Of a stretch of 64,000 bases of DNA, positions 20,134 through 37,674 are shown piece after piece. Position 1 is the first letter of the stretch; every line of letters begins with the position of its first letter. Under the pieces are notes generated by a model. That model saw only the letters and a program-made list of their open reading frames with translations, ran no database searches and was not told the DNA's origin. The DNA comes from Bacteroidaceae bacterium (GTDB lineage: Bacteria; Bacteroidota; Bacteroidia; Bacteroidales; Bacteroidaceae). The stretch covers positions 25,201 through 89,200 of the forward strand of contig JAFUVE010000047.1 in assembly GCA_017483765.1 (NCBI GenBank), read 5' to 3'. Position numbers and translations under genes: made by a program.

Positions 20134-23100
20134 ATGAATCGCCTGCTAAATCACCTAACTTTGCTTATTGCTCTGTTCGCGATTTCGCTCACGGATGCGG
20201 AAGCTTTCCAGAAGGACAGCCTCTACATCAACGTGAACGGCTCACAGCGCAATATGATTGTGTTTACGCCTAACAACGTAAGCAACGGACTACCTCTGAT
20301 GATTGTCACACACGGCATGAATCAGAATGCAACTTACCAGTACCAGGGCGACCGCCTCTGGGAACTCATCGACTCCGAACGCTTCATCATCGCTTACCTC
20401 AACAGCAATGGAGGTACATGGGACATCGGGGGAAGCGGTGACCTTAACTTCATCGATGCAGCTATCAACTATGTGGACAACCGCTATTCCATCAACCGCA
20501 ACCGCCTCTATTGGTCGGGATTCTCCATGGGATCCATGCTTATCTACCATGGCATCAGAAGCGAAATCGGTAAGAAATTCGCAGCCTTCGCTCCGTGCAG
20601 CGGTGTGCTTTTCTCTGCACAGCCCTGGAACGAACGCTCCACTCCGGTCAACCTCATTCATTGCCATGCATATGGCGACGATGTCTTCAACTACAACCAA
20701 TATGGCATTCGGGATTACGTCACGCACTTCGCCACCCTCGACAATGCCAACAACTACACGAAAGTGCAGAATTATTATCCCAACCAGGCTCAATTCGGAT
20801 GGATCGATGCGGATAAGGAAACATGGACTGGAGGAACTAACGGGTCGGAGGTGGAACTTCTCTCTGCAAACAGCGGAGGACACTGGCCTACAGGGGCTTA
20901 CAAATATGAGATATGGAACTTCTGTAAGCGCTTCTCACTCGACGGCAGCAGCAGCCAAACTACTACTGTCGCCAATTTCAACTACGATTCTTATTCAGGA
21001 CGATATAGGGTCGATTTCAACGACCTCACTACGGGTGGAGACCTTTCCTTCGACAGTTCTACGGGGGTGCTCTCACTTCCGGCAGGAAAAAGCGGAACAC
21101 TCACACTCACCTTCAACGGAGCTGATTTCTCCAACGTTTCAAAAGTGAAGATGTTCCGTTCGGGTGACGACCTCTTCAATACGTTGACCATCACCAACGC
21201 CGCAGGCAATTCGGTCAATCCGGGTGGTGCGTTCTACACAAGCAGATATGAATTGAACTATGCCGGATATCAGGCAAACAGCTCGGCTGTCAACACGCTG
21301 GTATGGCATGGAAACAACGATACGTCGGCTGCCAAGACCATGACACTGCAGGAAATCCTTATCAGCGTGGATGTCATGAGGGCAACGAAAAAACATGAAA
21401 AACAGCTTGCTCAGTCTGAGTTCGGAACATGGAACGGCGTTGGGGCATCTGCCGCCAGGACGGGCGACGATGCAGGCATGGAATACAACATCGACCAGTT
21501 CATTGCCGGTTACGGCACCATCTACGGAAACGGCAACGTGTATGCCAACTCTTATGCCGACCTCTCAAAATATGGTACGCTGCGTGTCTATGGCGACAAT
21601 GGCATCCATATCAGGGCCCTTTTCAACCGGCCGACCGACTCATCATCCGATTTCATACTCAAAGAGGGAGACATCACCGACGGAGTATTTGAGGTTGACC
21701 TCGCTTCAGTCGGACAGTATGCTCATCTCAATGCGCTCAAGGTGGGTGGGGGCAGCGGAACCGCATGGAGCGTCACCGTCACCGACGACACCACTCCCAT
21801 GGATTATTATATCTCAGGCAAACTATATGTGGCAGACAACCTCTCTGCCGCGCTCAACGACCTCTCTGCCACCAACTACGACGCAACAGGGCTGACCAAC
21901 ACATCAGCTGTTGCGCTCAACACGGCAAACAAGAACGCGCTGATTTACGTCACCGACGCAGCAAAACTATCCAACAGTGCCAATGTCGTGGAGAAGAACG
22001 GCGACAGCTATTCATCTGACAATATCGAGCTTATCGACGGTGTCTCTGCTTCTCAAGGACAAATTGCCTATGCTGCCCTCGGAGGCGGAACCACAGGTAA
22101 CAGTACCTGGTCCGAGACTGGTGGAAACTACTCCTTTGAGTGGACATCAGGAACATCAGGGGCATGGGTGGAACTTATGCATTATGTGAATTATAAGGAG
22201 AGTCTGGATGGCTGTCAATATAAATATTTCTTGGTTGACACTCAGGAATTCACCAACACATGGGGAGTACAGTTCCTCGATGGTGATGCCAATGTCTTGG
22301 TGCAGCAGGAATACTGGGTTGCCATGAACGACGGCAACAAGACCAAAATCATCGATGTCGAGAAATTGTTTGCTGATGCCGGTAAAACGGCTGACCGTAG
22401 CAAACTGACGAAAATCCGACTTTTCAACATCGACTCATCTAATGGTGGTAAGGTGGTGGTAAAGCAGGCTTATCTTTACAATGATGAGGCCGATAACGTA
22501 TATCCTTTCTACGCACCTTACGACATCACGGCGGCAAGTGCCAAACTCACGACTTCCGTCAGCGACGGATTCACGCTGCTTACCACCCCGTTCGCTGCTT
22601 CCATGCCATCGGGATTCACTTCCTATGCACTGCTTGAGGACAATGTACTTCCGTTCGACCGTATCGATCCTAATGCGCCTATGCTTGTCAAGGGTAACGG
22701 CGAACTTGTCCTCAGTGCCTCGAACGTTACGGTGAAGGCTACGGACGGACTGGTGGCTGGCGTGCTCAAGGGCACATACAAGCCGACGGTTGTGCCTGCT
22801 GGCAATTATGTGCAGAAGGAAGCCACCAGGGCTGACTCTTTCTCTCCTGTAGAGGGAGCGACGCTCTATGCCGTGACCCAAGGACAGGAACCGACTGTCT
22901 ATCCCTTCCATGCGTATGCCACTCAGGAAGTTGTTCTCAACAACGATGACCCGGATACCCCGGACAATCCGAATAATCCGGAAATTCCAGACAATCCGGA
23001 CAATCCCGAAAACCAGTCTTACACCCTCACTGTCACCAGTGCCGGCGTGTCCACGATGTATCTCGGATTCGATGCGCTTATTCCTGAAGATGCCGACTTC

Positions 23101-23613
23101 CTGCTTGTGGCAGCGGTGAAGAAAGTACAGGGTACGACTGCCTATCTCAAGCGAATCAAAAACGGAATCATACCTGCCAACACCGGTGTCATGATCTTCG
23201 CCAACCCAGGTACTTATACCTTCAACGAGTCGCAGACAGCACCCACCGAAGTGGTGGAGAGCGCACTGCATGGCGTGCTCAAGAACACCTCTGTCGCAGC
23301 CCTCTCTCAGCTTGAGGGCGGAGCGTCCATCTACGTGCTCAGCAGAGGAATCTCTGAATACACCGGATTCAAACTCGCGGGTGGAACCGTCAAGTCCGTG
23401 CCAGCAAACAAGGCATACCTGCCGGTTGACCAGTCCGTTCTCACGAAGTTCATCAACTTCTCGTTCGACGACAGCCAGACTACTGACATTCAAACTATCG
23501 ACCAGGAAGATGTCAACAGCAACGCTGACGTGTTCGACCTCAGCGGGCGAAAAGTCAACAAGCCGGAGAAGGGCATCTACATCGTCAACGGAAAGAAAAT
23601 ACTCATCAAATAA
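20134..23613 (+). CDS. CE1-type carbohydrate esterase on a multi-modular surface tail
   Basis: A 1159-residue secreted esterase. After a signal peptide (cleavage near TDAEA/F, residue 24) comes an alpha/beta-hydrolase domain to about residue 272: oxyanion region IVTHGMNQN, nucleophile S131 in SGFSMGSM and probable catalytic H250 in SGGHWP. This is the PHB-depolymerase/feruloyl-acetylxylan esterase group of CE1. The first domain of the gene at 40110 is a clear paralogue. From residue 278 the tail has a GADFSNVSKVKM module, the jelly-roll module with ADLSKYGTLRVYG, a WGVQFLDGDANVLVQ module, an Asp-Pro-Asn linker (NNDDPDTPDNPNNP...), a TLTVTSAGVS module and a sorting-like terminus KGIYIVNGKKILIK. 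The tail closely matches those of the next three enzymes. Likely role: removing ferulate or acetate from xylan at the cell surface. Confidence 0.85.
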   Translation: MNRLLNHLTLLIALFAISLTDAEAFQKDSLYINVNGSQRNMIVFTPNNVSNGLPLMIVTHGMNQNATYQYQGDRLWELIDSERFIIAYLNSNGGTWDIGGSGDLNFIDAAINYVDNRYSINRNRLYWSGFSMGSMLIYHGIRSEIGKKFAAFAPCSGVLFSAQPWNERSTPVNLIHCHAYGDDVFNYNQYGIRDYVTHFATLDNANNYTKVQNYYPNQAQFGWIDADKETWTGGTNGSEVELLSANSGGHWPTGAYKYEIWNFCKRFSLDGSSSQTTTVANFNYDSYSGRYRVDFNDLTTGGDLSFDSSTGVLSLPAGKSGTLTLTFNGADFSNVSKVKMFRSGDDLFNTLTITNAAGNSVNPGGAFYTSRYELNYAGYQANSSAVNTLVWHGNNDTSAAKTMTLQEILISVDVMRATKKHEKQLAQSEFGTWNGVGASAARTGDDAGMEYNIDQFIAGYGTIYGNGNVYANSYADLSKYGTLRVYGDNGIHIRALFNRPTDSSSDFILKEGDITDGVFEVDLASVGQYAHLNALKVGGGSGTAWSVTVTDDTTPMDYYISGKLYVADNLSAALNDLSATNYDATGLTNTSAVALNTANKNALIYVTDAAKLSNSANVVEKNGDSYSSDNIELIDGVSASQGQIAYAALGGGTTGNSTWSETGGNYSFEWTSGTSGAWVELMHYVNYKESLDGCQYKYFLVDTQEFTNTWGVQFLDGDANVLVQQEYWVAMNDGNKTKIIDVEKLFADAGKTADRSKLTKIRLFNIDSSNGGKVVVKQAYLYNDEADNVYPFYAPYDITAASAKLTTSVSDGFTLLTTPFAASMPSGFTSYALLEDNVLPFDRIDPNAPMLVKGNGELVLSASNVTVKATDGLVAGVLKGTYKPTVVPAGNYVQKEATRADSFSPVEGATLYAVTQGQEPTVYPFHAYATQEVVLNNDDPDTPDNPNNPEIPDNPDNPENQSYTLTVTSAGVSTMYLGFDALIPEDADFLLVAAVKKVQGTTAYLKRIKNGIIPANTGVMIFANPGTYTFNESQTAPTEVVESALHGVLKNTSVAALSQLEGGASIYVLSRGISEYTGFKLAGGTVKSVPANKAYLPVDQSVLTKFINFSFDDSQTTDIQTIDQEDVNSNADVFDLSGRKVNKPEKGIYIVNGKKILIK
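20965..23610 (+). repeat. Shared enzyme tail, copy 1 (on the CE1 head)
   Basis: About 880 residues running from VANFNYDSYSGRY to the end. Order: GADFSNVSKVKM module, YxDLSKYxxLRVYG module, WGVQFLDGD module, PFYAPYDITAA module, Pro/Asp linker, SAGVxTxYL module, C-terminal motif. Confidence 0.85.
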
Positions 23614-23630
23614 TTTATCCAGTTGCTGGT

Positions 23631-23653
23631 AGAGACGCGCCGTGGTGCGTCTC
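23631..23653. repeat. GAGACGC/GCGTCTC hairpin repeat
   Basis: GAGACGC (23632-23638) and GCGTCTC (23647-23653) flank GCCGTGGT. It resembles the short AGAGACGCG...GCGTCTC intergenic repeat that I recall as widespread in some bacterial genomes; recall only. Confidence 0.6.
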
Positions 23654-23663
23654 CCCCGGCACT

Positions 23664-23689
23664 GTAGGGACTTACTTTCTTTATGTCCG
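23664..23689. repeat. Palindromic intergenic repeat, copy 2
   Basis: Same 26-base element as at 19821, with CTTTCTTTATG in place of CTTTATGTATG in the loop region, which weakens the right arm. Confidence 0.85.
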
Positions 23690-23700
23690 ATTTCAATTCA

Positions 23701-23726
23701 GTAGGGACTTACTTTATGTATGTCCG
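23701..23726. repeat. Palindromic intergenic repeat, copy 3
   Basis: An exact 26-base copy of the element at 19821, 11 bases after copy 2. Confidence 0.9.
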
Positions 23727-23795
23727 TTTACACAACAAACATATAACAAATCTATCGCTTTTTATTAATAACTATCAATAATTTTAACCAACAAA

Positions 23796-23981
23796 ATGAA
23801 AAAGTTTTATTCAGCTCCACAGACGAAGACAATTAGTTTTCAGGTAAGATACAGTTTGATGGAAGAGACAGCTCAGGAGGTTTTGGCTAAGCAACGTAAG
23901 GAAGAAGAGGCGGAACAGATGGAAGAAGAGGAGTTTTTGGAATTCGTTGCAAGTATGGAGGAGCGAAAACCACTTTGGTAA
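23796..23981 (+). CDS. Small Glu-rich protein ending in LW
   Basis: A 61-residue protein, MKKFYSAPQTKTISFQV at the start and MEERKPLW at the end, with a strongly charged central helix (KQRKEEEAEQMEEEE). It shares start pattern, length and C-terminal LW with the protein at 19470. No signal peptide. It follows the CE1 giant by 182 bases containing three repeat elements and precedes a strong hairpin terminator. Function unknown. A role tied to the large surface enzymes is suggested only by two occurrences in the same position relative to them. Confidence 0.6.
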   Translation: MKKFYSAPQTKTISFQVRYSLMEETAQEVLAKQRKEEEAEQMEEEEFLEFVASMEERKPLW

Positions 23982-23997
23982 TCAAATGAGAGATTCT

Positions 23998-24036
23998 GGG
24001 GAAAAGACAGCAAGACTGTCTGTTCCCCGCTTCTCT
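23998..24036 (+). terminator. Terminator after the second small gene
   Basis: GGGGAA-A-AGACAG (23998-24010) pairs with CTGTCT-G-TTCCCC (24016-24028) around CAAGA, then GCTTCTCTTT. Confidence 0.7.
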
Positions 24037-24168
24037 TTGTTAAAATGAATAAGACTATTCAATTCAAAACAGTATGAAAAACTCATCGGAAGACCATCGT
24101 CTCGTATGCTTGACTTCTTGTCTTCTTGACTTCTTTGAATAAACAACCAACTAAAAACTCACTTTAAT

Positions 24169-27100
24169 ATGACCAAACACATTTTCAAATCAATCCTATG
24201 TCTTGCGCTGATGGCTCTTTCTCTCAACGCCAAGGCGCAAAGCTATGTCTTTGGCACCACACCGGCACTCCATGTCGATGGCAATAAGCTCAAAGACCCC
24301 AACGGCGGAACGGTCACCCTGCATGGTGTGATGGATACGCCGTCACCCTATTTCAACAGCTACAGATGGGGTACGTATTGGAGCGGACCGACCGACGAGG
24401 CGGTCACCAGAGCCAAGGACTATTTCGACAAAATCACAACGGCTATCACGCAGCCGTCGAGAGGCACTTACTGCAACCTTTTCAGACTCCACCTTGAGCC
24501 ATGGTGGTCGAACACCGGAAGCACAACGGGTGAGGACGACATCAGCAAGTTTTCTGCTGACAGACTCAGAACCTATCTTAATTCCCTCTTTATCCCGATC
24601 GCACTCAATGCGATCAGCAAAGGTTTATACGTCATTATTCGTCCGCCGGGAGTGTTTCCTAACACAGTCAATGTGGGAGACAACTACAACAACTACCTCA
24701 TGACGGTATGGGACATCGTCTCCAGTAACTCCACAATCAAGCAGTATAGCGGACAGATTTCACTTGAGTTGGGTAATGAGCCGGTGAATGTGAAAATCAA
24801 CGGACAGGATAATGCGGCTGCGCTGCATAATTACTTCCAGCCTATCGTCAATAAAATCCGGCAGAACGGATTCAACGGCATTCTCTGGATTCCGGGTTCA
24901 GGATGGCAGAGCCAGTATGCCACTTATGTGAACAATCCTATTTCCGATCCTCAAAACAACTATGGATATGCCGTTCACGACTATGTGGGATGGTACAACG
25001 GAGATAACTCCGCTTATGCCGACTGGAGACTCAACAACTATATCAACCAGTTCCACACACAGGTGCCGGTCATCGACAACTATCCTATCGTCATTACGGA
25101 GGTGGACTGGAGCCCGGAAAACGGATCAAGCGGACACTACGACGAACACGGAAACTGGGTTGTCGGTAATTTCGGTACATGGGCTACGGGTACCACGTCC
25201 AACTGGGGAAGACTCTATAAGGGACTGCTCGACCGATATCCGGAGAACATCTCCATGACGCTTTCTGGCACAGACACTTATATCGATGTGGAGGCTTATC
25301 TCAACAACGGAACAATACGACCGGCTTACACTACGGCCATGCAACAAAATGGATTTGCCAATGCATGGGAGGCGTGTAGCGGTGCGTGCTTCGAATGGTA
25401 CAAGATATGGGGACAGGCACAGATGAACGGAAGCGGCGGTGGCATCGCCACATTCTCACCCGATCAGCAGACAGGACGTTATTATGCCAGCTTCAACGAC
25501 CTCTCTGTCAGTGGAGACCTTTCGTTCGACAGAAACACGGGAGTCCTCTCTCTGCCAGCCGGAAAGAGCGGAAAGCTGACGCTCACCTTCAGCGGAGCGG
25601 ACTTCTCCAATGTCTCAACAATCAAGATGTCGCACACAGGGGATGACCTCTTCAACACGCTCATGATCAAAAACTCGGCCGGTAATTCTGTAAACACCGA
25701 CGGAGGGGCGTTCTATTCCAGCAGATACCAGCTCAACTACACGAACTATCAGGGCAACAGCTCAGCGGTCAATACCCTTGAATGGGAAGGCCACAATGAT
25801 GGGTCGGCCACCAAGACAATGACGCTGCAGCAAATCCTGATTCAGGAGGATGTGATGTGGGCCTCAAAGAAGCATGAGATAGCTCTTGCACAGGCTGAGT
25901 TCGGCACATGGAACAGTATTGACGCCAATGCCGCTAAGACCGGTGACGACGCTGACATGGAATACAACCTCAACCAGTTTATCGCCGGCTACGGCACGGT
26001 ATATGGAAATGGAAGTGTATTGTCACACAACTATGCCGATCTGACGAAATACACCAAACTGCGTGTTTATGGCGACAACGGACTGCTTGTCAGGGCGTTG
26101 TTCAACAGGACATCTGATGAGCAGGCCACAGGAAACGGTTCGTTACAGCCTTACATCGAATACAACAACCCAGCTAACCTGGCAGGAAAGACCTTTGCCA
26201 TCGTACGCGACAGTAAGGCTTTGTATGGAACGGATATGCAGAATCTCGCTTTCGACTCCTACACCAGTGCATTCTCAAGTGCTAACTCGGGGTATCTCTT
26301 CAAGGCTGAGAGCATCACAGTCAACGGACAGGACTATTTCCTCCTGAGACTGATGACGCCGGCGGGGGAGGAGTACAGTGTCTATGGAGGGACTGCCTAC
26401 CTCAATTCTCAGCCAACTGACGGATGGTGCAGCTTCGTGCTCGGACTGAACAACCAGAACGGACAGGACATCGAGAACGGTGCGGTATGGGATATCAAAT
26501 ATGTGGACGGACAAGGCATGACCATCCGTAATGTCGGTACGGGTCTTTATCTCGCCAACGCAGGACCGGCCAACAGCGAGTCGCCTGTCTATTGGACCTT
26601 ATGCACACTCAAGGAGCAGACAAACACCAACCTCATCGAAAAAGCAGGAGAAATCGCCGACGGTGTCTTCGAGGTGGATCTTAAGACTTTAGGTGACTTC
26701 GCACATCTCAACGCACTCAAAGTGGGCGGTGGAAGTGGATCCGTCTGGAGAGTCATGGTGGTGGACGATGAATCTCCTATGGACTACTATGTGTATGGAA
26801 AGAAATATGTGGAAGACAACCTTGCTGTTGCTCTCAACGACCGAAACGCCACGAATTATGACGCCACAGGACTGACTAACAGAACGGCTGTGGCACTCAA
26901 CACAGTGAACAAGAATGCGCTTATCTATGTGGATAACGCATCCAGGCTTTCTAATTCCGCCAACGTCGTGGTGAAGAACGGTAACAACTATTCGGCATCA
27001 AACATCGTGCTTACTGACGGGGTTTCCGCAGCACAGGGACAGAGGGCGTATGCAGCTCTCACAGGAGGTACCCCAGAGAATGCCACATGGACAGAGAACA

Positions 27101-28569
27101 ACGGAAACTACACATTCGAATGGGCTTCAGGCGCATCAGGACAGTATGTGGAAATCATGCACTGGGTTTATCTGACAGAACAGAACAACGGATGCCAGTA
27201 CAAGTACATGTTGATTGACACAGAGGAATATACCAGCAAATGGGGTGTCCAGTTCCTCGACGGAGATGGACGAGAGTTGGCTAAACAGGAATATTGGGTT
27301 TCCATGGCTGATGGAGGAGCAACAACGAAAATACTGAATATCGATGCTCTGTTCGCCGTTGCGGGTAATTCGTCGAAACGGGCAAACCTCACGAAAATCC
27401 GTCTGTATAACTTCGATTCCAACAGTGGTGGTAAAGTTGTTGTGAAGGAGGCATATCTCTACAACGAACCTACAGAAAACGTGTATCCGTTCTATGCGCC
27501 TTATGACATCACGGCTGCTAATGCCAAGCTGACAACGAAAATCGGTGATGACGGATTCACATTGCTCACCACACCGTTTGCTGCCTCATTGCCTTCGGGA
27601 TTCACTTCTTATGCTCTCCTGGAAGACCAGGTGCTTGAGTTCGACCGCATCAATGCCAACGCACCGATGCTCGTCAAAGGCAACGGAGAACTGGTGCTTA
27701 CGGCATCGGGTACCACCATTCCGGCTACGGACGGACTTAATGCGGGTGTGCTTCAAGGCACATATAAGCCGACGGCTGTTGCAGCAGGTAACTACGTACA
27801 GAAAGAAGCCACACGTGACGACTCTTTCTCGCCCGTGGAGGGAACAACGCTCTATATCGTATCTGAAGGACAGGAGCCGACCATATATCCGTTCCATGCT
27901 TATGCAACCGCTGAGGTGCAGACCGGAAACAATGACGACCCGGATCCGGACGATCCCGACCCGACATACGAGCCTTTCGAACTCACTGTATCCAGTGCTG
28001 GAGTGGCTACTGTGTATCTTCCCTTCGATGCGGTCATCCCGGATGCGGACTTCTTCGCGGCTGCTGGTGTGACATCCATCTCTGGAAGCACTGCTTACCT
28101 CAAGGAGGTCAAAGGCGGAATCATACCGGCTAACACGGGTGTCATGATATTTGCCAACCCGGGCAAGTATCTGCTCTATCCATCATCCACACCGGCTACA
28201 ACAACCGTTCAGAGCATCATGCATGGAGTTCTCGTCGATACGCCAATCAATCAGGTGAAGGCGAACGAGGGTGGAGCCAACATCTATGTGCTCAGCCGCG
28301 GAATTGAGGAATACACTGGATTCAAGATTGTGGGAAGCACGGTCAAGAGCATCACGGCCAACAAGGCTTACATCGCACTGCCTGCCGACAGCAATGTCAA
28401 GGAAATCCGAATCTCATTCGGTGGCGAAACGCCTACGGGTATTGACGATGTCAAGGCTATCCTCAATGGCTGCGGAGCTGACATGATATACGACCTCAGC
28501 GGACGCAGAGTAAACAACCCGACAAAGGGTATTTACATCATCAACGGAAAGAAAGTGCTTATAAAATGA
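24169..28569 (+). CDS. GH5 glycoside hydrolase on a multi-modular surface tail with a nested domain
   Basis: A 1466-residue secreted enzyme, signal peptide ending NAKA/Q (residue 23). The GH5 barrel spans about residues 30-418: acid/base E204 in LELGNEPVN and nucleophile E311 in VITEVDWSPE. It closely parallels the GH5 of the gene at 10798, with many identical stretches such as HGVMDTPSPYFNSYRWG. A short Gly-rich linker (MNGSGGG) leads to the shared tail from about residue 425, which ends in KGIYIINGKKVLIK. Inside the jelly-roll module of this tail, between RALFNRTSDEQ and LIEKAGEIADGVFEVDL, there is an extra domain of about 170 residues absent from the other three enzymes. GH5 specificity is not readable; endo-xylanase or a related backbone activity fits the locus. 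Confidence 0.88.
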   Translation: MTKHIFKSILCLALMALSLNAKAQSYVFGTTPALHVDGNKLKDPNGGTVTLHGVMDTPSPYFNSYRWGTYWSGPTDEAVTRAKDYFDKITTAITQPSRGTYCNLFRLHLEPWWSNTGSTTGEDDISKFSADRLRTYLNSLFIPIALNAISKGLYVIIRPPGVFPNTVNVGDNYNNYLMTVWDIVSSNSTIKQYSGQISLELGNEPVNVKINGQDNAAALHNYFQPIVNKIRQNGFNGILWIPGSGWQSQYATYVNNPISDPQNNYGYAVHDYVGWYNGDNSAYADWRLNNYINQFHTQVPVIDNYPIVITEVDWSPENGSSGHYDEHGNWVVGNFGTWATGTTSNWGRLYKGLLDRYPENISMTLSGTDTYIDVEAYLNNGTIRPAYTTAMQQNGFANAWEACSGACFEWYKIWGQAQMNGSGGGIATFSPDQQTGRYYASFNDLSVSGDLSFDRNTGVLSLPAGKSGKLTLTFSGADFSNVSTIKMSHTGDDLFNTLMIKNSAGNSVNTDGGAFYSSRYQLNYTNYQGNSSAVNTLEWEGHNDGSATKTMTLQQILIQEDVMWASKKHEIALAQAEFGTWNSIDANAAKTGDDADMEYNLNQFIAGYGTVYGNGSVLSHNYADLTKYTKLRVYGDNGLLVRALFNRTSDEQATGNGSLQPYIEYNNPANLAGKTFAIVRDSKALYGTDMQNLAFDSYTSAFSSANSGYLFKAESITVNGQDYFLLRLMTPAGEEYSVYGGTAYLNSQPTDGWCSFVLGLNNQNGQDIENGAVWDIKYVDGQGMTIRNVGTGLYLANAGPANSESPVYWTLCTLKEQTNTNLIEKAGEIADGVFEVDLKTLGDFAHLNALKVGGGSGSVWRVMVVDDESPMDYYVYGKKYVEDNLAVALNDRNATNYDATGLTNRTAVALNTVNKNALIYVDNASRLSNSANVVVKNGNNYSASNIVLTDGVSAAQGQRAYAALTGGTPENATWTENNGNYTFEWASGASGQYVEIMHWVYLTEQNNGCQYKYMLIDTEEYTSKWGVQFLDGDGRELAKQEYWVSMADGGATTKILNIDALFAVAGNSSKRANLTKIRLYNFDSNSGGKVVVKEAYLYNEPTENVYPFYAPYDITAANAKLTTKIGDDGFTLLTTPFAASLPSGFTSYALLEDQVLEFDRINANAPMLVKGNGELVLTASGTTIPATDGLNAGVLQGTYKPTAVAAGNYVQKEATRDDSFSPVEGTTLYIVSEGQEPTIYPFHAYATAEVQTGNNDDPDPDDPDPTYEPFELTVSSAGVATVYLPFDAVIPDADFFAAAGVTSISGSTAYLKEVKGGIIPANTGVMIFANPGKYLLYPSSTPATTTVQSIMHGVLVDTPINQVKANEGGANIYVLSRGIEEYTGFKIVGSTVKSITANKAYIALPADSNVKEIRISFGGETPTGIDDVKAILNGCGADMIYDLSGRRVNNPTKGIYIINGKKVLIK
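25441..28566 (+). repeat. Shared enzyme tail, copy 2 (on the GH5 head)
   Basis: Same module order as copy 1, enlarged by the nested domain at about 26117-26634. It runs from IATFSPDQQTGRYY to the C-terminus. Confidence 0.85.
26117..26634 (+). other. Domain nested inside the jelly-roll module of the GH5 protein
   Basis: About 170 residues, from around QATGNGSLQPYIEYNN to LCTLKEQTNTN. They interrupt a module that is continuous in three paralogues (RALFNRPTD...ITDGVFEVDL). The insert has Trp-rich beta patterns (GWCSFVLGLNNQNGQ, GAVWDIKYVDGQG, GTGLYLANAG) suggesting a trefoil- or lectin-like fold; this is inference. Confidence 0.7.
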
Positions 28570-28581
28570 TTTTTTGACAGT

Positions 28582-28629
28582 CTCAGGGGGGGAGCTGATT
28601 ATCAACACTCCCCCTGAGCAGTTTTTTTT
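28582..28629 (+). terminator. Terminator after the GH5 giant
   Basis: CTCAGGGGGGGAG (28582-28594) pairs with CTCCCCCTGAG (28608-28618), followed by CAG and eight T residues. A small second hairpin, CCGCAG-TTTT-CTGCGG, lies at 28653-28668. Confidence 0.85.
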
Positions 28630-28707
28630 AGTACCTCTTGCTTTCCTGTACGCCGCAGTTTTCTGCGGCCATTCCCAGCAAAACAACAACCAAAATACTA
28701 TAACCCA

Positions 28708-31700
28708 ATGAAAAAATTACTTTTATCATTAACCTTACTACTCGTCTGCGTCATGGCCAACGCGCAGAGCAGACGGCCTATCGACCCACAGCATCCCATG
28801 TGGATCATACACGTCGATGCGTGGAACTATCCCGACCCACAGGCTATTATCGACCTCATTCCGGACGACATCAAGCCATATGTCTGCATCAACCTCTCGC
28901 TTTCTTGTGCCTACAACACGTCGACCGGATACCACCAGAAACCGGAGAACGCAGTACTCACATTCAAGTCGTGGGCTACCGTCTGCTGTCAGAACAACGT
29001 GTGGTTCATGTGCCAGCATGCATCGGGTGGGCACTGTCATATCAAGGATGACGACCTCGACACGTTCGAGTATTTCTTCACCCATTACAAGAACTTCCTG
29101 GGATGGAACTACGCAGAGCAGTTCTGGGGGTTCGGAGAAAGCGGAGACGAGTATTCCATGACCGACGAATCGAGGATTGCTCTCTTTGCCAAACTCGTGC
29201 CTATGTCACACAAATACGGTGGTGTACTCGTCGTCAGCTTCTGCGGAAACATCTATTCCCACCCTCTCAACCCCATGGCGATGATGAAGCGTAACAGTGC
29301 GTTGCTTGAAGCATGCCGACAGTACCCGGAGGCTATTCTCTGGTGCTATAAATATACAACAGCGGCTTGTTGGTACAACAACGAGAGCGTCTGTCTCGGA
29401 CCATTTGTCTCCGGACTCGCCAAGAACTATGGCCTGCGCTACGACAACTGCGGATGGGACGGAGGTACGGAAGGATATGAAAAAGCCAAATACGGAAGTG
29501 CTCGCTCCAATCGCACCTATCCTGAATCCGTCGGCATCGGACCCATCCTCGACCAGATTGTCAACAACGGAGCGTGTGTCTTCGACGGACCGGAGCTCAT
29601 CTGGACTCAGTGCTTCAAGGAGAACTGGACCAGTACTGTTGACGGATACTCACACCGTAGCTGGTCAACATATACGCAGTTCGACAACATCTGGATTGAC
29701 ATGTTCCGGAAAATGCTCGACGGCACCATCCATATTGCATCACGTGATGAAGTGGTTGACAGGACTAAAATCGCCGTGGTACAGAACTTTCCCATCAATC
29801 AGGATGATGCAAGATGGGAGAAATGGAAGGCGTATGCCACAAAAGATGATATGTACAATGGGCTTTACAGACAAAACGACCCGATGAATTATGGGGCTGG
29901 AAAGGACCAAAACTGGCTTTTCTTCAAGAAAACCGGACGATACCAGGCCATTCCCGTGGTCAACGGCATGTACGACTCCAAAGCCAATAGCATTCCTGTG
30001 AAAGTGAACCAGACGGACATCGTCAGTGGCTCGGTATGGGGAAATGAGACGGCGAAGGTCAATCAGTTCAACCAGTATTACCCGCAGGAATACACTGGCG
30101 ACCTCTTCGCATCACGCCATAAGAACGAATGGGTGGTGTATTACCCCTTCTCCTATTATTACAGTTACGAGAAGACGGCATCGGCATCCATGGACCTCAA
30201 ATACAACACATGCGCGAAGATGGACATCACCATGCAGAAATTCGATGCCGGAATCATCAAGGAAGCTTCTAACTATCTTGACATCTACCTCAACAACTTT
30301 CGTTCCGACACAACGACCGTCAAGACGGCAACGATCAAAATCACTGGGGCGTCTTCCAAACCGTCGTACACATACACCAACAGGTCGAACAACAGCTCCA
30401 TCAGCGGGGGACTTGACATTTCTGAAAACTGGGCAAACAACACTTATACCCTTACGGTCAAACACATGGGACCGGTGGATATCCGGTTGAACTGCGCAGG
30501 GACATCTACTGGCAAAAGCTCTGACTACCTTTCCAACAGCATCTATACACCGGTTCAGCCGGAATCCACATACGACGGACCGGTCATCACTGAGGCTGAG
30601 GTGTTCGACAGGAAAAACATTCAGCAGGCTGTGACCGATGCCTATGCGCAGCAGAACAGCATACACAATCACGCTGGGCTTGGCTTCATCATGATGGGTA
30701 CCAATTCTGCGGCAGCCATCAAGTCATCTCAAAAAATCGGAAGGACAACGGACTATTACATCAAGTTCCGCTATTCGGCTCCTAACGGAGGTATGACGAA
30801 CTACAGAATATGTGTGGACAGCGAGAGCAACGAAGTGGCTACCGTCACCTTCAACAATACAGGGAGTTACAGTACCTGGCAAGAGACTTCCAATACCGTC
30901 AGTCTCACACAGGGAACACACAATATCTTCCTCAAGGCTGTGTCCGCGGGCAACAATCTTGCCATCGACCAGATGACCATTGTACCGACCGACTACCAGG
31001 AGGAAATCATCTCATCCGACGGAGCACCGTTCAACTACGACGCTGAGTCCGGACGTTATATGGCCGACTTCAATTATTTCACTGCGGGAGGCGACCTGCA
31101 GTTCGACAAATCTACAGGACTTGTAACGCTCCCGGCTGGAAAGACTGGGTCGTTGACATACAAGTTCTCGGGGGCAAACTTCTCAAATGTGTCGAAAGTC
31201 AAACTCGACCACTCGGGAGATGACAACTTGTTCTCTACACTTACAATCACTTCCAACGGATCGGTCATCAATAACGGAGGGTCTTTCTGGTCAAGCAAAT
31301 ACCTGCTCAACTTCACGAACTATCAGCAGGAGAGTGCTAATGTGACGACGCTGGTGTGGAATGGAAGCAACAGTGGCAACACCGATATGACCATGACCAT
31401 CAACCAACTCCTCGTGCAGGTTGACGTTCTCAGGGCCGACCAGAAACATGAGGTTCCTATGACGGCCGACCTCTATAAGGCTTGGAGCGGAGCGGAAGCG
31501 GATGCAACGGAAACGGGGACTGCCGAACCAGAATACAACACCGACATCGTGCTCGGTGCCTATGGCGTCATTTACGGATCTTCAAGTGTGGCGGCCAACC
31601 TCTATGCCGACCTCTCGAAATACAGCAAGCTGCGTGTCTATGGTGATAATGGGCTGGGTGTCAGGGCTCTCTTCAACAGACCGACTGACACTTCGTCTGA

Positions 31701-33609
31701 CTATGTGGAGAAAGCTGCCACCATCACTGATAATGTCTTTGAGATCGACCTGAAGGAAATTGGTGACTTTGCGCATCTCAATTCCATCAAGGTCAGCTCC
31801 AACAACAACAGGGGCATGGTGTGGAGAGTCATGCTGGTGGACGACGAAAGTCCGATGGACTACTATATCCATGGCAAGAGCCCGAGAACCATCAGCGTGG
31901 ACAATGCGCTTGAGGATGCCGAAGCTACCAACTTCGACGCAACGGACCTTACCAATGTATCAGACCTCAATCTCACGACTAAGAACTTGAACGCGTTGCT
32001 CTATGTCACCGACCAAAGCAAGGTGGCGAACGACCACAACGTGGTGGTGAAGAGCGGAAACAGCTATACAGCACAGAATATTGTCCTCACCGATGCAGCT
32101 AATGTGGCAAATGTCGTGGCCGATGCCTATCTGCCGGGGGCTTCTGCCGTGAACTGCACGTGGACTGAGGCCAATGGTAAATACACGTTTGAGTGGGCTG
32201 CCGGAGCTTCCGGTGCTTACGTGGAGATCATGCATTATGTCAACACAAGCGAGAGCCAGAAGGGATGTCAGTTCAGATATTTGCTGGTTGACACGGAGGA
32301 GTTCACCAACACGTGGGGAGTTCAGTTCCTCGACGGTGATGCAAACGTGCTTGTGTCACAGGGCTACTGGAATCCGATGAATGACGGCAACAAGATGAAG
32401 GTCATCGATATCACCGCCCTCTTTGAGACGGCTGGAAAAATGTCACAAAGGAGCAGCCTGACGAAGATAAGACTCTATAACATCGACTCTGCAAATGGTG
32501 GCAAGGTGACAGTCAACAAGGCTTATCTCTACAATTCCCAGGCCGATTACGCATATCCGTTCTTTGCTCCGTACGACATCACGGCGGCATCGGCTCAGCT
32601 GACTACCGCGGTTGACCAGCAGAAGGGGTCAACCATCTGTATTCCTTTCAATGCGGATATACCATCGGGATTCAACGCATTCAGCGTGTCTGATGCCGGT
32701 GTCACATCAACAAATGTGGCGGAGGCAAATCGCCCATTGCTTCTTTCCGGCTCAGGCAACGCTGATTTCACAGCACAGAACGTGGTCGTGAAGGCGACGG
32801 ACAACCTGCAGAGCGGATTGCTACAGGGTGTGTACAAGACGACTCCGGTGCCGTCTGGATACTATGCACAGTACGAAAATGCCACTGGTACGCCTTACGA
32901 GCCTGTACAGGGAGTCATGCTCTATGAGGTCGCTGGCAGCGAGGCTGTTCAGATTTATCCCTTCAGGGCATATCTCACACAGCAAATCGATACACCAGAG
33001 CCGGCTGAACCGTATGAGCTTACGGTGACGTCGGCGGGAGTGGCCACCCTTTATCTCGATTATGATGCGCTTGTTCCCGATGAGGACTTCTTCCTCGTTA
33101 CGGCGGTCAAGGAGCTCGACGGGACGACGGCTTACCTCAAGGAAGTGAAAGGTGGTATCATTCCGGCTAATACCGGCGTGATGATTTTTGCCAATCCAGG
33201 CACTTACCTGATCTATCCTTCAAACGTGCAGGCCACAGAGAATGTGCAGAGCCTCCTGCATGGAGTGCTTGTCGATACACCCGTCAGCACGGTCAAGGCA
33301 AATGAGGACGGGGCGGCCATTTTCGTGCTCAGCCGTGGGATTCAGGAATACACCGGATTCAAAATCGTGGGAAGCACAGTCAAGACCATTACAGCGAACA
33401 AGGCTTATCTTCCAGTTAGCCAGACCGTCGAGGTCAAGGAAATCTACATCTCATTCTGGGGACAGGTCATCACTGGCATCGACGATGTCAAGGCTGCAGT
33501 CGAAAACAGCAAAAAGAACGAAGCGATTTACGACCTCAGCGGACGACGTGTCAGCAAGATGAACAAGGGCATCTACATTGTCAATGGCAAGAAGGTACTC
33601 ATCAAGTGA
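28708..33609 (+). CDS. GH98 endo-acting glycoside hydrolase on a multi-modular surface tail
   Basis: The largest protein in the window, 1633 residues, signal peptide ending VMANA/Q (residue 19). Residues about 22-420 match the GH98 catalytic domain: HPMWIIHVDAWNYPDPQAI, LSLSCAYN, NYAEQFWGFGE (134-144), YDNCGWDGG (245-253) and DGPELIWTQ (293-301). A beta-rich GH98 accessory region follows to about 620. A CBM6/35-like module (about 626-763) begins ITEAEVFDRKN and ends LAIDQMTIVP. The shared tail runs from about 770 and ends KGIYIVNGKKVLIK. GH98 enzymes include blood-group endo-galactosidases and, in Bacteroides ovatus, an endo-xylanase specific for highly decorated corn glucuronoarabinoxylan; the neighbours here favour the xylan activity. 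It is followed by GH30 on the same strand. Confidence 0.87.
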   Translation: MKKLLLSLTLLLVCVMANAQSRRPIDPQHPMWIIHVDAWNYPDPQAIIDLIPDDIKPYVCINLSLSCAYNTSTGYHQKPENAVLTFKSWATVCCQNNVWFMCQHASGGHCHIKDDDLDTFEYFFTHYKNFLGWNYAEQFWGFGESGDEYSMTDESRIALFAKLVPMSHKYGGVLVVSFCGNIYSHPLNPMAMMKRNSALLEACRQYPEAILWCYKYTTAACWYNNESVCLGPFVSGLAKNYGLRYDNCGWDGGTEGYEKAKYGSARSNRTYPESVGIGPILDQIVNNGACVFDGPELIWTQCFKENWTSTVDGYSHRSWSTYTQFDNIWIDMFRKMLDGTIHIASRDEVVDRTKIAVVQNFPINQDDARWEKWKAYATKDDMYNGLYRQNDPMNYGAGKDQNWLFFKKTGRYQAIPVVNGMYDSKANSIPVKVNQTDIVSGSVWGNETAKVNQFNQYYPQEYTGDLFASRHKNEWVVYYPFSYYYSYEKTASASMDLKYNTCAKMDITMQKFDAGIIKEASNYLDIYLNNFRSDTTTVKTATIKITGASSKPSYTYTNRSNNSSISGGLDISENWANNTYTLTVKHMGPVDIRLNCAGTSTGKSSDYLSNSIYTPVQPESTYDGPVITEAEVFDRKNIQQAVTDAYAQQNSIHNHAGLGFIMMGTNSAAAIKSSQKIGRTTDYYIKFRYSAPNGGMTNYRICVDSESNEVATVTFNNTGSYSTWQETSNTVSLTQGTHNIFLKAVSAGNNLAIDQMTIVPTDYQEEIISSDGAPFNYDAESGRYMADFNYFTAGGDLQFDKSTGLVTLPAGKTGSLTYKFSGANFSNVSKVKLDHSGDDNLFSTLTITSNGSVINNGGSFWSSKYLLNFTNYQQESANVTTLVWNGSNSGNTDMTMTINQLLVQVDVLRADQKHEVPMTADLYKAWSGAEADATETGTAEPEYNTDIVLGAYGVIYGSSSVAANLYADLSKYSKLRVYGDNGLGVRALFNRPTDTSSDYVEKAATITDNVFEIDLKEIGDFAHLNSIKVSSNNNRGMVWRVMLVDDESPMDYYIHGKSPRTISVDNALEDAEATNFDATDLTNVSDLNLTTKNLNALLYVTDQSKVANDHNVVVKSGNSYTAQNIVLTDAANVANVVADAYLPGASAVNCTWTEANGKYTFEWAAGASGAYVEIMHYVNTSESQKGCQFRYLLVDTEEFTNTWGVQFLDGDANVLVSQGYWNPMNDGNKMKVIDITALFETAGKMSQRSSLTKIRLYNIDSANGGKVTVNKAYLYNSQADYAYPFFAPYDITAASAQLTTAVDQQKGSTICIPFNADIPSGFNAFSVSDAGVTSTNVAEANRPLLLSGSGNADFTAQNVVVKATDNLQSGLLQGVYKTTPVPSGYYAQYENATGTPYEPVQGVMLYEVAGSEAVQIYPFRAYLTQQIDTPEPAEPYELTVTSAGVATLYLDYDALVPDEDFFLVTAVKELDGTTAYLKEVKGGIIPANTGVMIFANPGTYLIYPSNVQATENVQSLLHGVLVDTPVSTVKANEDGAAIFVLSRGIQEYTGFKIVGSTVKTITANKAYLPVSQTVEVKEIYISFWGQVITGIDDVKAAVENSKKNEAIYDLSGRRVSKMNKGIYIVNGKKVLIK
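31021..33606 (+). repeat. Shared enzyme tail, copy 3 (on the GH98 head)
   Basis: From GAPFNYDAESGRYM to the C-terminus, same module order, with GANFSNVSKVKLDHSG and YADLSKYSKLRVYGDNG. It is the most diverged copy in the PFFAPYDITAA region, which has an extra STICIPFNAD. Confidence 0.85.
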
Positions 33610-33620
33610 TTGAGACAGGA

Positions 33621-33678
33621 AAGGTGTCGGTATGGAAGTGTTTCTGACACACTCAATTGCCGACACCTTATCCTCTTT
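33621..33678 (+). terminator. Terminator-like hairpin after the GH98 gene
   Basis: AAGGTGTCGG (33621-33630) and CCGACACCTT (33660-33669) are perfectly inverted around 29 bases. Only a weak TCCTCTTTT follows, so termination may be partial. Confidence 0.6.
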
Positions 33679-33721
33679 TATAAAAAATAGTCTGTAAATG
33701 ATTTTATATATTGTCGAAAAT

Positions 33722-36700
33722 ATGAGAACTAAATTGATGACTTTATTGTTGATGTGTGTGCTGTCTGTTGCCCAGGCGGCTAATGTCACGATGACGGTCA
33801 ACAACACAAAATACCAATACATAAAAGGGTTCGGTGCATTCGTCTGCAGCCCGCAGTTCACCTACAATCATATGTCGGAATCGGAAATCAGACAAGTGTG
33901 GGGACCGAACAGCACGCTCAAGTGCAACATCATGAGACTCTATCTGCCGATTGGAGAAAACAGTTTTTCTCAGTCGCTCAGTACTGCCAGACTCGGCAAA
34001 AACCTGGGACTGTATGTCTTCGCTTCACCGTGGTCCATGCCAGCACAGTGGAAGACCATCAACTCCGTCAATGCAAAAGTGAACAACAGCCAGAATTACC
34101 TTCAGGAACAATATTATGGCACATACGCTGATTATCTCAATAACTATGTGACCTATCTGAGAAATAATGGCGTGAGTCTCGATGCAATCTCCATTCAGAA
34201 TGAGCCGGACTGGCCTTGCGAATATGCGGGATGTATTTTCACGACTTCGCAGATTGTCAATTTTCTGGCCAACTATGCAGGAAGGATCAACTGTAAGGTC
34301 ATTGCGCCTGAGACTATCGGTATGTCGGATAACTATGCCAATGCATTGCTTAACTCATCTGCGGCGTTAGCCAACTTTGAAATTTATGGAGGACATCAGT
34401 ATGCCGGCGTCGGGTCGGCCTTCAAGAACCTCGCAAACAGAGGTAAGGAGCTATGGATGACGGAATATCTTATCAACTGGACGGAAGGTGATAACAAGCA
34501 GGACAGAAATGTCAGCTGGGCCTCGGATGCCTTTAACTTTGCCAATGCCATCAACACGTGCATGCTCAACAATGTCAACGCGTGGGTACACTACACCGCC
34601 AAACGCTTCTATGCACTTATGGGAGACGGACAGAGGGGGACCACTTCTGGGCAAATAACAAAACGTGGATATATTCTCGGACAGTTCTCTAAGTACATCA
34701 CCGGAAGCACTCGTGTCGGATCTTCTTTCTCATCATCCGACCTCTCTGGATCGGCCTACCTCTCCCAGACGGGAGACACTATCTTTGCCGTTGTCATCAA
34801 CTCCAGCTCCAACTCTCATTACCTCACAGTATCACTGCCGTTCTATACAAACGGAGGAAAACGGGCCGTCACCACGAATTCAAAGAACCTACAGGAGGAC
34901 AATCTCTCTTTCGCCTCGGCTACCAACCGGCCGGCGGTCACTGTGGAAGCGTCAAGCGTCACGACTCTTGTCTTTGTCAATAACTCTGCTGTCAAGGTGT
35001 CCGACTTCAATTATGATATGGCGACTGGACGATTCATCGCCGACCCGAACAACCTCACGGCAGGGGGGGACTTGCAATTCAACCCTTCTACAGGGGAAAT
35101 CACACTGCCTGCAGGAAAGACGGGAACACTTACCCTTGCGTTCGGAGGAGCGGACTTCTCCAATGTCTCGAAAGTGAAGATGTCGCGCGATGGAGACGAC
35201 CTGTTCAACACACTTATGATCCGCAATACGGCTGGCAATTCCGTCAATACCGATGGAGGAGCGTTTTATAGCAGCAAATATGAACTCAATTACGCTAACT
35301 ACCAGGCTAACAGCGAGGCGGTGGCTACATTGGTATGGACTGGAACAAACGACGGAACGAGTGCGAAAACGATGAATCTCAGGCAAATTCTCGTGCAGGT
35401 CGATGTCACAAGGGCTGACAAACTGCATGAAATCCCACTCGACCGCTGGGCTTTTGGTATCTGGGACGGAATCGGAGCCAATGCCACGAAAACTGCAAAT
35501 GACGATGACATGGAATACAATATTGACCAATGTATTGCCGGATATGGAACTATTTACGGTAATGGTAATGTCAAGGCTCTTAACTACGTTGACCTGACCA
35601 AATACAGCAAGTTGAGGGTTTATGGTGACAATGGAATTCGTGTCAGGGCTCTTTTCAACCGTTCTACAGACACTTCGACAGATTTCGTGGAAATGGCTGG
35701 AGAAATCACTGACGGTGTGTTTGAGGTGGATCTCAGTTCCGTTGGCGAATATGCGCACATGAATGCACTTAAAGTCGGCGGTGGTACCGGTGCTGCATGG
35801 CGCGTCATGGTCGTGGACGACAACAATCCTATGGACTACCGTATCTATGGCAAACAATATGTGGCTGATAATCTCGCTGAAGCTTTGGACGATGCCAGTG
35901 CCACCAACTACGATGCCACTGGACTGACAAACTCTTCTGCAATCACGCTCAATGCTGTTAACAAAAACGCGTTGATTAATGTTGATAACTCGACCAGGCT
36001 TTCTAATACGGCTAACGTGGTCGTGAAAAACGGAAACAGCTATACGGCTCAGAATATTCTTCTTTATGATGTCTCCTCTGCAGTGGCCGACAGACCGGCG
36101 GCATGGTTCCCGAGCGGTTCGGTCATCGGAAGCGGGGCCACATGGACTGATTCCGGAAATGGTACGTACACCTATCATTGGGATGCGGGCTCTACAAGCA
36201 CGGAAGTGCAGATTTTCAACTATATCATCGAACGGCAAGACTACAAATATGTGGTGGTGGAGACGGCTTCCTTCACTGAACAGTGGGGAATTCGTTTCTA
36301 CGACGATGCAGACAACCTTATCACTGAGCAGGGATATTGGGCTGCACAACATGGCGGAAACCTCATCAAGGAAATCAATATCGACTCCCTCTTTGCTGTA
36401 AAGAATGTAAGCAACAAACGTGCCGTGCTCACAAAAGTCCGTCTCTACGGATTCAATGCAGATGGTGGTGATGTCGTGGTGAAGTCGGCATATCTGTGCA
36501 ATAAGGCGACTGACAGAATCTATCCGTTCTACGCACCATACGATATTGAGGCAGCCACCGCTTCCATCAGTACCACAATCGAGAATGATGGATTCAAGAC
36601 GTTCTGCATTCCGTTCAACGTGGCTGTGCCCGAGAATTTCACGGCTTATGTTCTCTCTGAGGAGAAGGCTACTCAAATCACACAGATTCAGGCTAACATG

Positions 36701-37576
36701 CCGGTTATTCTCAAAGGAAGCGGAACTGCTGGGTTCAGTGCGACGAATGTGACAGTGAAGGCAACTGATGGGCTGGAGAATGGTATTATGAAGGGTACGT
36801 ACAAGACAACGGTGGTGACGGCTGGAAACTATGTGCAAAGAGAGGCAGTCAGGGCTGATTCTTTCTCTCCTGTTGAAGGTGTCACGCTATATCTCGTCAG
36901 CGAAGGTGGGGAAACTACCATATACCCCTTCCAGGCTTACGCAACACAGGAAATGCAGTCTCAGGAACCGGATGACCCGGCTCAGCCCTACGAGCTGACT
37001 GTCACATCGGCTGGTGTGGCTACACTTTATCTCGATTTCGATGCTGTTATTCCCGATGAGGACTTCTTTGCAGCTTGTGCGGTCACCTCCGTGTCTGGCT
37101 CTACGGCTTATCTGAAGAAAATCAAGGGAAGCATTATTCCGGCTTATACGGGGGTCATGATTTTTGCAAATCCAGGGACTTACACTTTACAACCCTCTGA
37201 GGTTGAACCCACTGAAAATGTGCAGAGCATTCTCCATGGTGTGCTTGAGAATACACCAATCAACACGGTAAAGGCGAATGAGGGAGGTGCAGACATCTAT
37301 GTCCTCAGCAGAGGTATTGAGGAATACACAGGATTCAAAATCGTAGGTTCCACGGTCAAGACCATTACTGCAAACAAGGCTTATCTCGCTGTCAGCAGCG
37401 GTGGACAAGTCAAGGAAATCAATCTCTCATTCGGTAATGGGCAGACTACGGACATCACAGACATCAAGAATTTACTTGATCATTCCGATGTGTACTATGA
37501 CCTCTCAGGAAGGGTGGTGAAAAATCCCCAAAAAGGAATTTACATCTTGAACGGACGTAAGATTTATATCAAATAA
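33722..37576 (+). CDS. GH30 (subfamily 8-like) glucuronoxylanase on a multi-modular surface tail
   Basis: A secreted enzyme of 1284 residues. I start it at ATG 33722 because MRTKLMTLLLMCVLSVAQA is a clean signal peptide; an in-frame ATG eight codons upstream would spoil it. The GH30 domain spans about residues 20-420: IKGFGAF at the start, acid/base E161 in SIQNEPDW, nucleophile E248 in LWMTEYL and an Arg (R295) in YTAKRFYALMGDG. That loop is the region where GH30_8 enzymes hold the methylglucuronate carboxylate. A beta domain to about 420 and the shared tail follow, ending KGIYILNGRKIYIK. Predicted action: endo-cleavage of xylan next to glucuronosyl branches, complementing GH115 and GH98. 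Confidence 0.88.
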   Translation: MRTKLMTLLLMCVLSVAQAANVTMTVNNTKYQYIKGFGAFVCSPQFTYNHMSESEIRQVWGPNSTLKCNIMRLYLPIGENSFSQSLSTARLGKNLGLYVFASPWSMPAQWKTINSVNAKVNNSQNYLQEQYYGTYADYLNNYVTYLRNNGVSLDAISIQNEPDWPCEYAGCIFTTSQIVNFLANYAGRINCKVIAPETIGMSDNYANALLNSSAALANFEIYGGHQYAGVGSAFKNLANRGKELWMTEYLINWTEGDNKQDRNVSWASDAFNFANAINTCMLNNVNAWVHYTAKRFYALMGDGQRGTTSGQITKRGYILGQFSKYITGSTRVGSSFSSSDLSGSAYLSQTGDTIFAVVINSSSNSHYLTVSLPFYTNGGKRAVTTNSKNLQEDNLSFASATNRPAVTVEASSVTTLVFVNNSAVKVSDFNYDMATGRFIADPNNLTAGGDLQFNPSTGEITLPAGKTGTLTLAFGGADFSNVSKVKMSRDGDDLFNTLMIRNTAGNSVNTDGGAFYSSKYELNYANYQANSEAVATLVWTGTNDGTSAKTMNLRQILVQVDVTRADKLHEIPLDRWAFGIWDGIGANATKTANDDDMEYNIDQCIAGYGTIYGNGNVKALNYVDLTKYSKLRVYGDNGIRVRALFNRSTDTSTDFVEMAGEITDGVFEVDLSSVGEYAHMNALKVGGGTGAAWRVMVVDDNNPMDYRIYGKQYVADNLAEALDDASATNYDATGLTNSSAITLNAVNKNALINVDNSTRLSNTANVVVKNGNSYTAQNILLYDVSSAVADRPAAWFPSGSVIGSGATWTDSGNGTYTYHWDAGSTSTEVQIFNYIIERQDYKYVVVETASFTEQWGIRFYDDADNLITEQGYWAAQHGGNLIKEINIDSLFAVKNVSNKRAVLTKVRLYGFNADGGDVVVKSAYLCNKATDRIYPFYAPYDIEAATASISTTIENDGFKTFCIPFNVAVPENFTAYVLSEEKATQITQIQANMPVILKGSGTAGFSATNVTVKATDGLENGIMKGTYKTTVVTAGNYVQREAVRADSFSPVEGVTLYLVSEGGETTIYPFQAYATQEMQSQEPDDPAQPYELTVTSAGVATLYLDFDAVIPDEDFFAACAVTSVSGSTAYLKKIKGSIIPAYTGVMIFANPGTYTLQPSEVEPTENVQSILHGVLENTPINTVKANEGGADIYVLSRGIEEYTGFKIVGSTVKTITANKAYLAVSSGGQVKEINLSFGNGQTTDITDIKNLLDHSDVYYDLSGRVVKNPQKGIYILNGRKIYIK
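34990..37573 (+). repeat. Shared enzyme tail, copy 4 (on the GH30 head)
   Basis: From VKVSDFNYDMATGRF to the end: GADFSNVSKVKMSRDG, VDLTKYSKLRVYGDNG, WGIRFYDDADNL in place of WGVQFLDGD, PFYAPYDIEAA, SAGVATLYLDF and the C-terminal motif. Confidence 0.85.
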
Positions 37577-37637: not shown

Positions 37638-37673
37638 GCAACGTTTGTGTACATACAGACGTTGCTTTTTTTT
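37638..37673 (+). terminator. Terminator after the GH30 gene
   Basis: GCAACGT (37638-37644) pairs with ACGTTGC (37659-37665), followed by eight T residues. Confidence 0.85.
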
Positions 37674-37674
37674 C

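Follow-up and report, generated by a model that had tools for sequence, protein, structure and literature searches.

A composite C-terminal tail shared by four neighboring, putatively xylan-degrading enzymes in a Bacteroidaceae genome

Accessory regions shared by enzymes with different catalytic domains have been reported in several bacteria. In the rumen bacterium Fibrobacter succinogenes, a CBM6 carbohydrate-binding module (CBM) and a basic terminal domain, FPm-1, are common to hemicellulases of glycoside hydrolase (GH) families GH10 and GH43 and carbohydrate esterase (CE) families CE1 and CE6 with nearby locus tags, FPm-1 being C-terminal and present in 24 genes (PMC3079729). The gingipains RgpA and Kgp and the protein HagA of Porphyromonas gingivalis, cargo of the type IX secretion system (T9SS), combine different heads with common C-terminal adhesin modules (PMC5266723). 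The rumen Bacteroidota 'Candidatus Paraporphyromonas polyenzymogenes' has multimodular carbohydrate-active enzymes with a T9SS C-terminal domain (CTD), and a hypothetical C-terminal domain that binds Avicel has homologues on other cellulases (PMC5831590). The PUL-XylL locus of Bacteroides ovatus comprises GH98, GH30, GH115, GH95, GH10 and GH43 enzymes, with GH98 and GH30 endo-xylanases at the surface (PMC4491172). Here we describe four consecutive open reading frames (ORFs; 20134-37576) with CE1-like, GH5, GH98 and GH30 heads that carry one shared, ordered tail. They lie in a 64,000-nucleotide window of contig JAFUVE010000047.1 from a Bacteroidaceae bacterium, and all coordinates are positions within this window on the forward strand.

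The locus differs from each of these systems. F. succinogenes belongs to another phylum, and its hemicellulases, as far as they are described, share a CBM and one basic domain, as opposed to the composite of about 850 aa with nested modules found here. Its export route also differs from the route here. The gingipains are proteases with identical repeats within and between genes and with other domain families (PMC5266723), and a Pfam search of the four proteins (E<=1) matched no gingipain-type adhesin domain. The 'Ca. Paraporphyromonas' enzymes are cellulases and, in the passages considered, are not described as sharing one ordered tail among four neighboring head families (PMC5831590). B. ovatus shares its complex-xylan families with this locus, but its enzymes are implied to be surface lipoproteins (PMC4491172), whereas T9SS-type ends occur here and no SusD match was found on the 89-kb contig (C103, which stops at the window's end; PF07980 matched at 10 places elsewhere in this 70% complete genome, and SusC was not searched). 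A statement in the initial annotation that no comparable locus was known was too strong, given the accessory modules shared by neighboring Fibrobacter hemicellulases (PMC3079729). Shared accessory tails were thus already known from Fibrobacter, the gingipains and 'Ca. Paraporphyromonas'; the history of heads and tails described below is new. No published description of the same arrangement was found among the titles and opening lines of abstracts listed by literature searches.

The first of the four proteins (20134..23613, 1159 aa) has a CE1-like esterase head (residues 1-~275), and the second (24169..28569, 1466 aa) a GH5 head (residues 1-~420). In the third (28708..33609, 1633 aa) the GH98 head is accompanied by a CBM6 (30691-30981), and the fourth (33698..37576, 1292 aa) has a GH30 head; since orthologues align from residue 9, its translation probably begins at the ATG at 33722. 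GH98M, GH98C and CBM6 exceeded their Pfam cut-offs in the GH98 protein. The GH30 head scored 26.7 bits against Pfam GH30 (cut-off 23) and 190 bits against NCBIfam XynC, below the model cut-off of 650. The CE1 label is based on Pfam and NCBIfam esterase matches below threshold. The GH5 head itself had no GH5 Pfam match at E<=1, and it is 57.8% identical to the N-terminal part of the protein at 10798-14517, itself a PF00150 match at 3.9e-13. Since the four heads are unrelated, whole-gene duplication is excluded.

The tail was divided into modules A, B, C, D, E and F and a CTD, and one hidden Markov model (HMM) was built for each from the four window tails only, so that remote relatives may escape detection. 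With these models the order A-B-C-D-E-F-CTD, with a linker between E and F, was recovered in all four proteins. BLASTP gave a best segment of E 0.0 in 6/6 protein pairs. Over 856-883 aligned residues, amino acid identity of the tails was 66.8% for CE1-GH5, 60.9% for GH5-GH30, 58.7% for CE1-GH30, 55.3% for GH5-GH98, 54.4% for CE1-GH98 and 53.6% for GH98-GH30, which bears out the initial observation of one ordered tail on four neighbors. Module A occupies 20974..21381 in the CE1 gene, 25450-25860 in GH5, 31027-31434 in GH98 and 35003-35413 in GH30. Module B, with the LRVYG motif, follows at 21382..21798, 31435-31854 and 35414-35830 in CE1, GH98 and GH30; in GH5 it is split (25861-26124 and 26614-26778) by an insert, T, of 167 aa (26119..26619), which makes that tail longer. 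In the same gene order, module C lies at 21799..22041, 26779-27021, 31855-32097 and 35831-36073; module D, between C and E, at 22042..22494, 27022-27477, 32101-32547 and 36074-36514; module E at 22495..22932, 27478-27918, 32548-32988 and 36515-36955; and module F, with the SAGVxTxYL motif, at 23014..23466, 27970-28419, 33007-33456 and 36983-37432. The C-terminal T9SS-type signal closes each protein (23467..23610, 28420-28566, 33457-33606 and 37433-37573). Wherever D is absent, E adjoins C directly. Two details of the initial description needed adjustment. Module D is present in all four proteins, but the WGVQFLDGD motif marks only one of two subtypes, the GH30 copy reading WGIRFYDDA and being 37-44% identical to the other three. 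An acidic proline linker is likewise present, but is long in CE1 and GH5 only (by eye).

None of the tail modules of the four proteins reached a Pfam or NCBIfam cut-off, and no Pfam CBM family was above cut-off in any tail module encoded in the window. In structure models, module D is predicted to fold as a jelly roll like those of CBM11, CBM86 and CBM30, and module A is probably a CBM-like beta-sandwich. Strands are present in the model of module B. Much of insert T had a predicted local distance difference test (pLDDT) score <50; its matches were limited to RicinB_lectin_2 at E 0.2 (2/17 sequences) and DUF4165 at a best E of 0.00099 (4/17). No hidden homology was found among modules A, B and D, and searches of PDB sequences with the A2, D and B profiles gave nothing useful. 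The Foldseek lists for two multi-domain models held mostly low-TM matches and were not used except for CBM86. The predicted folds suggest that the tail modules may bind glycans.

The last ~47 aa of the tail resemble a short T9SS-type CTD, which may serve as a general export tag. Residues T6, I8, G27, G36, K44 and K48 were invariant in 13 CTDs of the genome from which the window comes (hereafter the source genome). In the short CTDs of Prevotella intermedia, the seed set measures 40-51 aa and the full set 43-55 aa; they have a PT/GI cut site, a basic motif E, a Gly within motif B and either GxY or GxN within motif D (PMC11969387). The four ends agree with this type in the T/G-I site, the conserved Gly, GxY and the terminal Lys; the cut site reads T-D-I instead of T-G-I in CE1 and GH30, and 41-44 aa separate the T site from the protein end (hand count). 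The likeness to the described P. intermedia CTDs is limited to these last ~47 aa (PMC11969387). SprA/Sov and a PorU-type sortase were both found above cut-off in the source genome. A profile from the 13 ends matched at 50 places in that genome at E<=1e-3. TIGR04183 (T9SS type A sorting domain) had no match at E<=1 in the window proteins; its best E was 0.38, in 1/21 sequences. By eye, the N-termini of the four resemble signal peptides, with cysteines within the hydrophobic stretch in GH5, GH98 and GH30; these three could conceivably carry a lipoprotein signal. The surface-display function first assigned to the whole tail thus found a counterpart in the T9SS-type signal, but one that appears confined to the terminal piece and general in the genome.

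The same type of C-terminal signal was also seen in the sequence of a structurally solved endo-arabinanase (PDB 4kca, chain residues 634-681; A3 profile, E 7.6e-7), besides which the A3 profile gave two weak rows. Pfam found no dockerin on the four proteins. Elsewhere in the window, the proteins at 10798-14517 and 57334-60621 have, in place of a T9SS-type end, C-terminal dockerin-type repeats with 79% identity to each other across 57 aa; the region therefore uses two kinds of C-terminal tag.

The A-E block is rare, in contrast to the general CTD. Among 28 matches in the source genome, the complete tail was found on the four genes only, and the remaining matches read were B-like, weakly F-like or CTD alone; B modules also occur there on ORFs in which Pfam recognises no catalytic domain. 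A 702-aa ORF on contig C94 has a partial D followed by A, B, C and E, with no known head. The source genome is a metagenome-assembled genome (MAG) of 69.9% completeness and may thus lack additional copies. A concern raised at the outset, that the same tail might sit on most secreted proteins, therefore applies to the end piece but not to A-E, which is complete on four proteins only among the matches in this genome. Among 399 genomes of the family, the whole-tail query matched at E<=1e-40 in seven (two candidates scored per genome), one of them, G017, through F and CTD alone. Module D, with at most 10 candidates scored per genome, was found in 6/399 family genomes and in 2/393 of the order including the source genome, the other (G695) at only 28 bits. 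Within the genus, 4/13 genomes had a tail match, the source genome included. A contig search returned two close loci among 14, in MAG Tb.RUG.277 and in the Prevotellaceae MAG SRR873607_bin.20.

The tails are old copies. DNA identity among the four was 59.7-67.2%, third codon positions were 40.4-45.6% identical, and no exact run of >=25 bases was present in the codon alignment. Four-fold degenerate sites of the CE1-GH5 tail pair were 22-52% identical per alignment window. Recent gene conversion among the window tails, for which they had initially been judged close enough, is not supported by these values.

The four genes recur, in unchanged order, in two other genomes of the genus, G157 and G171. 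Across the three species the heads are 80-90% identical and the tail modules 44-89%; four-fold sites between species, heads included, are ~13-71% identical per alignment window in the pairs shown, so these genes diverged long ago. Trees of A+B+C gave one clade per head type, in agreement with the heads within the genus, and the tails were therefore copied before these species split. Module D behaved differently in some copies. In CE1 of G157, module D shares 84% identity with the D of G157 GH30 and 44% with that of the window CE1; the D tree rejected a CE1 clade (p 0.0004) and placed the D of G129 GH5 apart from the other GH5 copies (p 3e-5). Module F weakly rejected a CE1+GH5 clade (p 0.035, approximately unbiased (AU) test). 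Insert T occurs in the CE1 proteins of G157 and G171 and is absent from the window CE1, and a CE6-like esterase domain lies between E and F in the same two proteins. G157 also has, between its GH98 and GH30 genes, an extra 905-aa protein, judged lyase-like by eye (L069 4542-7259), in which F and CTD are the only tail parts.

A second genus, g21, bears a related tail. In G047 and G159 the block B-C-D-E is attached to GH30, CE1, GH98, GH5-GH43, GH10 and GH43-CBM6 heads and to GH27-like and lyase-like heads (both by eye); A was found on GH98 only, and F on none. Among the g21 proteins with a B-E block and a complete end, 11/12 have a G-x-N terminus, a form that makes up a subgroup of the P. intermedia short CTDs (PMC11969387). 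Identity to the window heads is 73% for GH30, 54% for CE1, 53% for GH5 and 49% for GH98. In a B+C+E tree of 24 tails, in which GH98 of G047 sits on a long branch, the genera were separated at 100/100, and head-wise clades were rejected for GH30 (3e-6), CE1 (1e-82) and GH98 (3e-4). Head trees were built by a quick method with 30 GH30, 31 CE1 and 31 GH5 rows, from 30/39 GH30 matches and 30 loci each for CE1 and GH5; L217 was left out because its alignment was short, L208 received its BCDE label by hand after a fuller ORF in L127, and L200, L202, L171 and L207 are truncated by contig ends. Tail-bearing GH30 heads of both genera formed one clade (100), and 25/30 GH30 loci have, among modules A-F, an E-like piece only. 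Monophyly of tail-bearing heads was rejected for CE1 (5.5e-6) and GH5 (7.6e-57); any tail beyond GH43 would lie outside the short loci of the GH5-GH43 proteins, and D was found in only six family genomes. We read these trees as separate tail attachment for CE1 and GH5 and as replacement beneath the head for GH30.

A different platform was found in other relatives, in which a domain X follows the head and is followed by F and CTD (CE1 of G129, GH43 of G017). The CE1 and GH5 proteins of G017 and the GH5 protein of G065 enter X before the contig ends. Where X is present, the heads of CE1 and GH5 have 72-78% identity to those of the window. Both platforms can coexist in a single genome, since G129 has A-F on GH5 and X-F on CE1. 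In G017, where the CE1 and GH43 genes are adjacent, their X parts share 128/138 bases and 39/46 third positions, which suggests recent copying between neighbors on a short stretch.

It seems fairly probable that the four are surface xylan enzymes, exported by the T9SS, on a common, substrate-holding tail platform that is largely private to the lineage. Each enzyme would consist of a catalytic head and, mounted on adaptor domains C/E and F, two to three beta-sandwiches of a carbohydrate-binding-like type: D, probably A and perhaps also B. PorU would remove the short CTD upon attachment to the cell surface, and the A-E block would hold the GH98, GH30 and GH5 endo-xylanases and the CE1 esterase on the same xylan strands, with a possible benefit from co-localization. 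The two genera would have joined the platform to the same families of heads independently, or it would have been replaced beneath the heads; pieces of it (D, T, the CE6 domain) would have been inserted, lost or swapped over time. The plug-in architecture proposed in the initial annotation is supported by the overlapping heads of two genera, the grouping of tails by genus, the absence of tailed CE1 and GH5 clades and the other tail in relatives, but it needs to be turned around: the heads are the stable, syntenic part, and tails appear to be attached, replaced and rebuilt. Some tests weigh against frequent exchange, insofar as E rejected neither a CE1 (p 0.38) nor a GH5 (p 0.10) clade and D neither a GH98 (p 0.175) nor a GH30 (p 0.055) clade (AU). 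In a broader form of this proposal, each Bacteroidota lineage would spread a private tail over the same xylan heads (A-F in the window genus, B-E in g21, X-F in G017, G065 and the G129 CE1), the tail marking the bacterium and the head the reaction, and the enzymes would form a co-localized surface unit, a T9SS-borne functional analogue of the cellulosome; we offer this extension as speculative and rather doubtful.

The main rival to attachment and replacement is many losses with concerted evolution, in which one old fusion per head was lost in most lineages and the clustering by genus arose through gene conversion. The single clade of tail-bearing GH30 heads speaks for it, and the G017 X parts show that neighbor copying can happen, but the low third-position and four-fold identities of the window tails do not fit, neither the CE1 nor the GH5 heads with tails form a clade, and the junctions differ (GH5-A in g1 versus GH5-GH43-B in g21; CE1-A versus CE1-B). 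Many losses would also be required, with D in so few family genomes. We consider this history somewhat improbable and favor independent attachment over repeated loss.

Two further explanations concern function. The tail could be a protein-protein assembly region as in the gingipains and HagA, like tails binding each other or a common partner, with a matching interface that keeps them alike within a lineage. Tails, unlike heads, are alike within a genus and different between genera, close relatives carry a different tail common to neighbors, and the T9SS cargo proteins RgpA, Kgp and HagA have adhesin domains in common, arranged as a mosaic (PMC5266723). The predicted CBM-type fold of D, and probably of A, argues against assembly, and tails 54-67% identical within one genome, with D types about 40% alike, would be loose for a common interface; an assembly role thus appears unlikely. 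A generic secretion or stalk region, irrelevant to the substrate and made similar in four genes by local copying, is quite unlikely. It would account for the CTD-type ends (50 places), the few weak F-like modules and those B modules that lie, elsewhere in the source genome, on ORFs with no catalytic domain recognised by Pfam. In the proteins examined, however, complete A-E or B-E blocks sit on enzyme-like heads, the headless 702-aa ORF has the block only partly, and the unrelated heads exclude whole-gene duplication. The recurrence of the GH30, CE1 and GH5 heads with one shared tail or another amounts to a natural experiment in the gain of accessory regions. Nameless in Pfam, the window tail modules are candidates for new xylan-binding families, and the locus, with no SusD near these genes, provides a test case for xylan digestion at the surface via T9SS cargo in rumen-type Bacteroidota.

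The four genes are neighbored by GH10-CE1 (37748-39904), CE1-CE6-like (40110-41729), GH115, GH95 and GH43 genes and a hybrid two-component regulator. The preceding ORF (15278-19450, 1390 aa) has several weak B-like repeats, no tail and no Pfam match at E<=1; its product ends in KGVYVIGGKKIVK, and in G157 and G171 relatives directly precede the CE1 gene. An antisense open frame of 628 aa (34952-36838, reverse strand) over the end of the GH30 head and the tail is probably a by-product of codon usage. Within the region ~37650-39960, the GH10-CE1 gene has 98.2% DNA identity to the G171 copy (third positions 95%), whereas the adjacent GH30 genes of the window and G171 have third positions only 28-68% identical per alignment window. 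This identity jumps abruptly within an upstream terminator-like hairpin and fades within a second hairpin just past the stop codon (both hairpins recognised by eye), a pattern that would fit either the exchange of a gene cassette between species or a MAG artefact.

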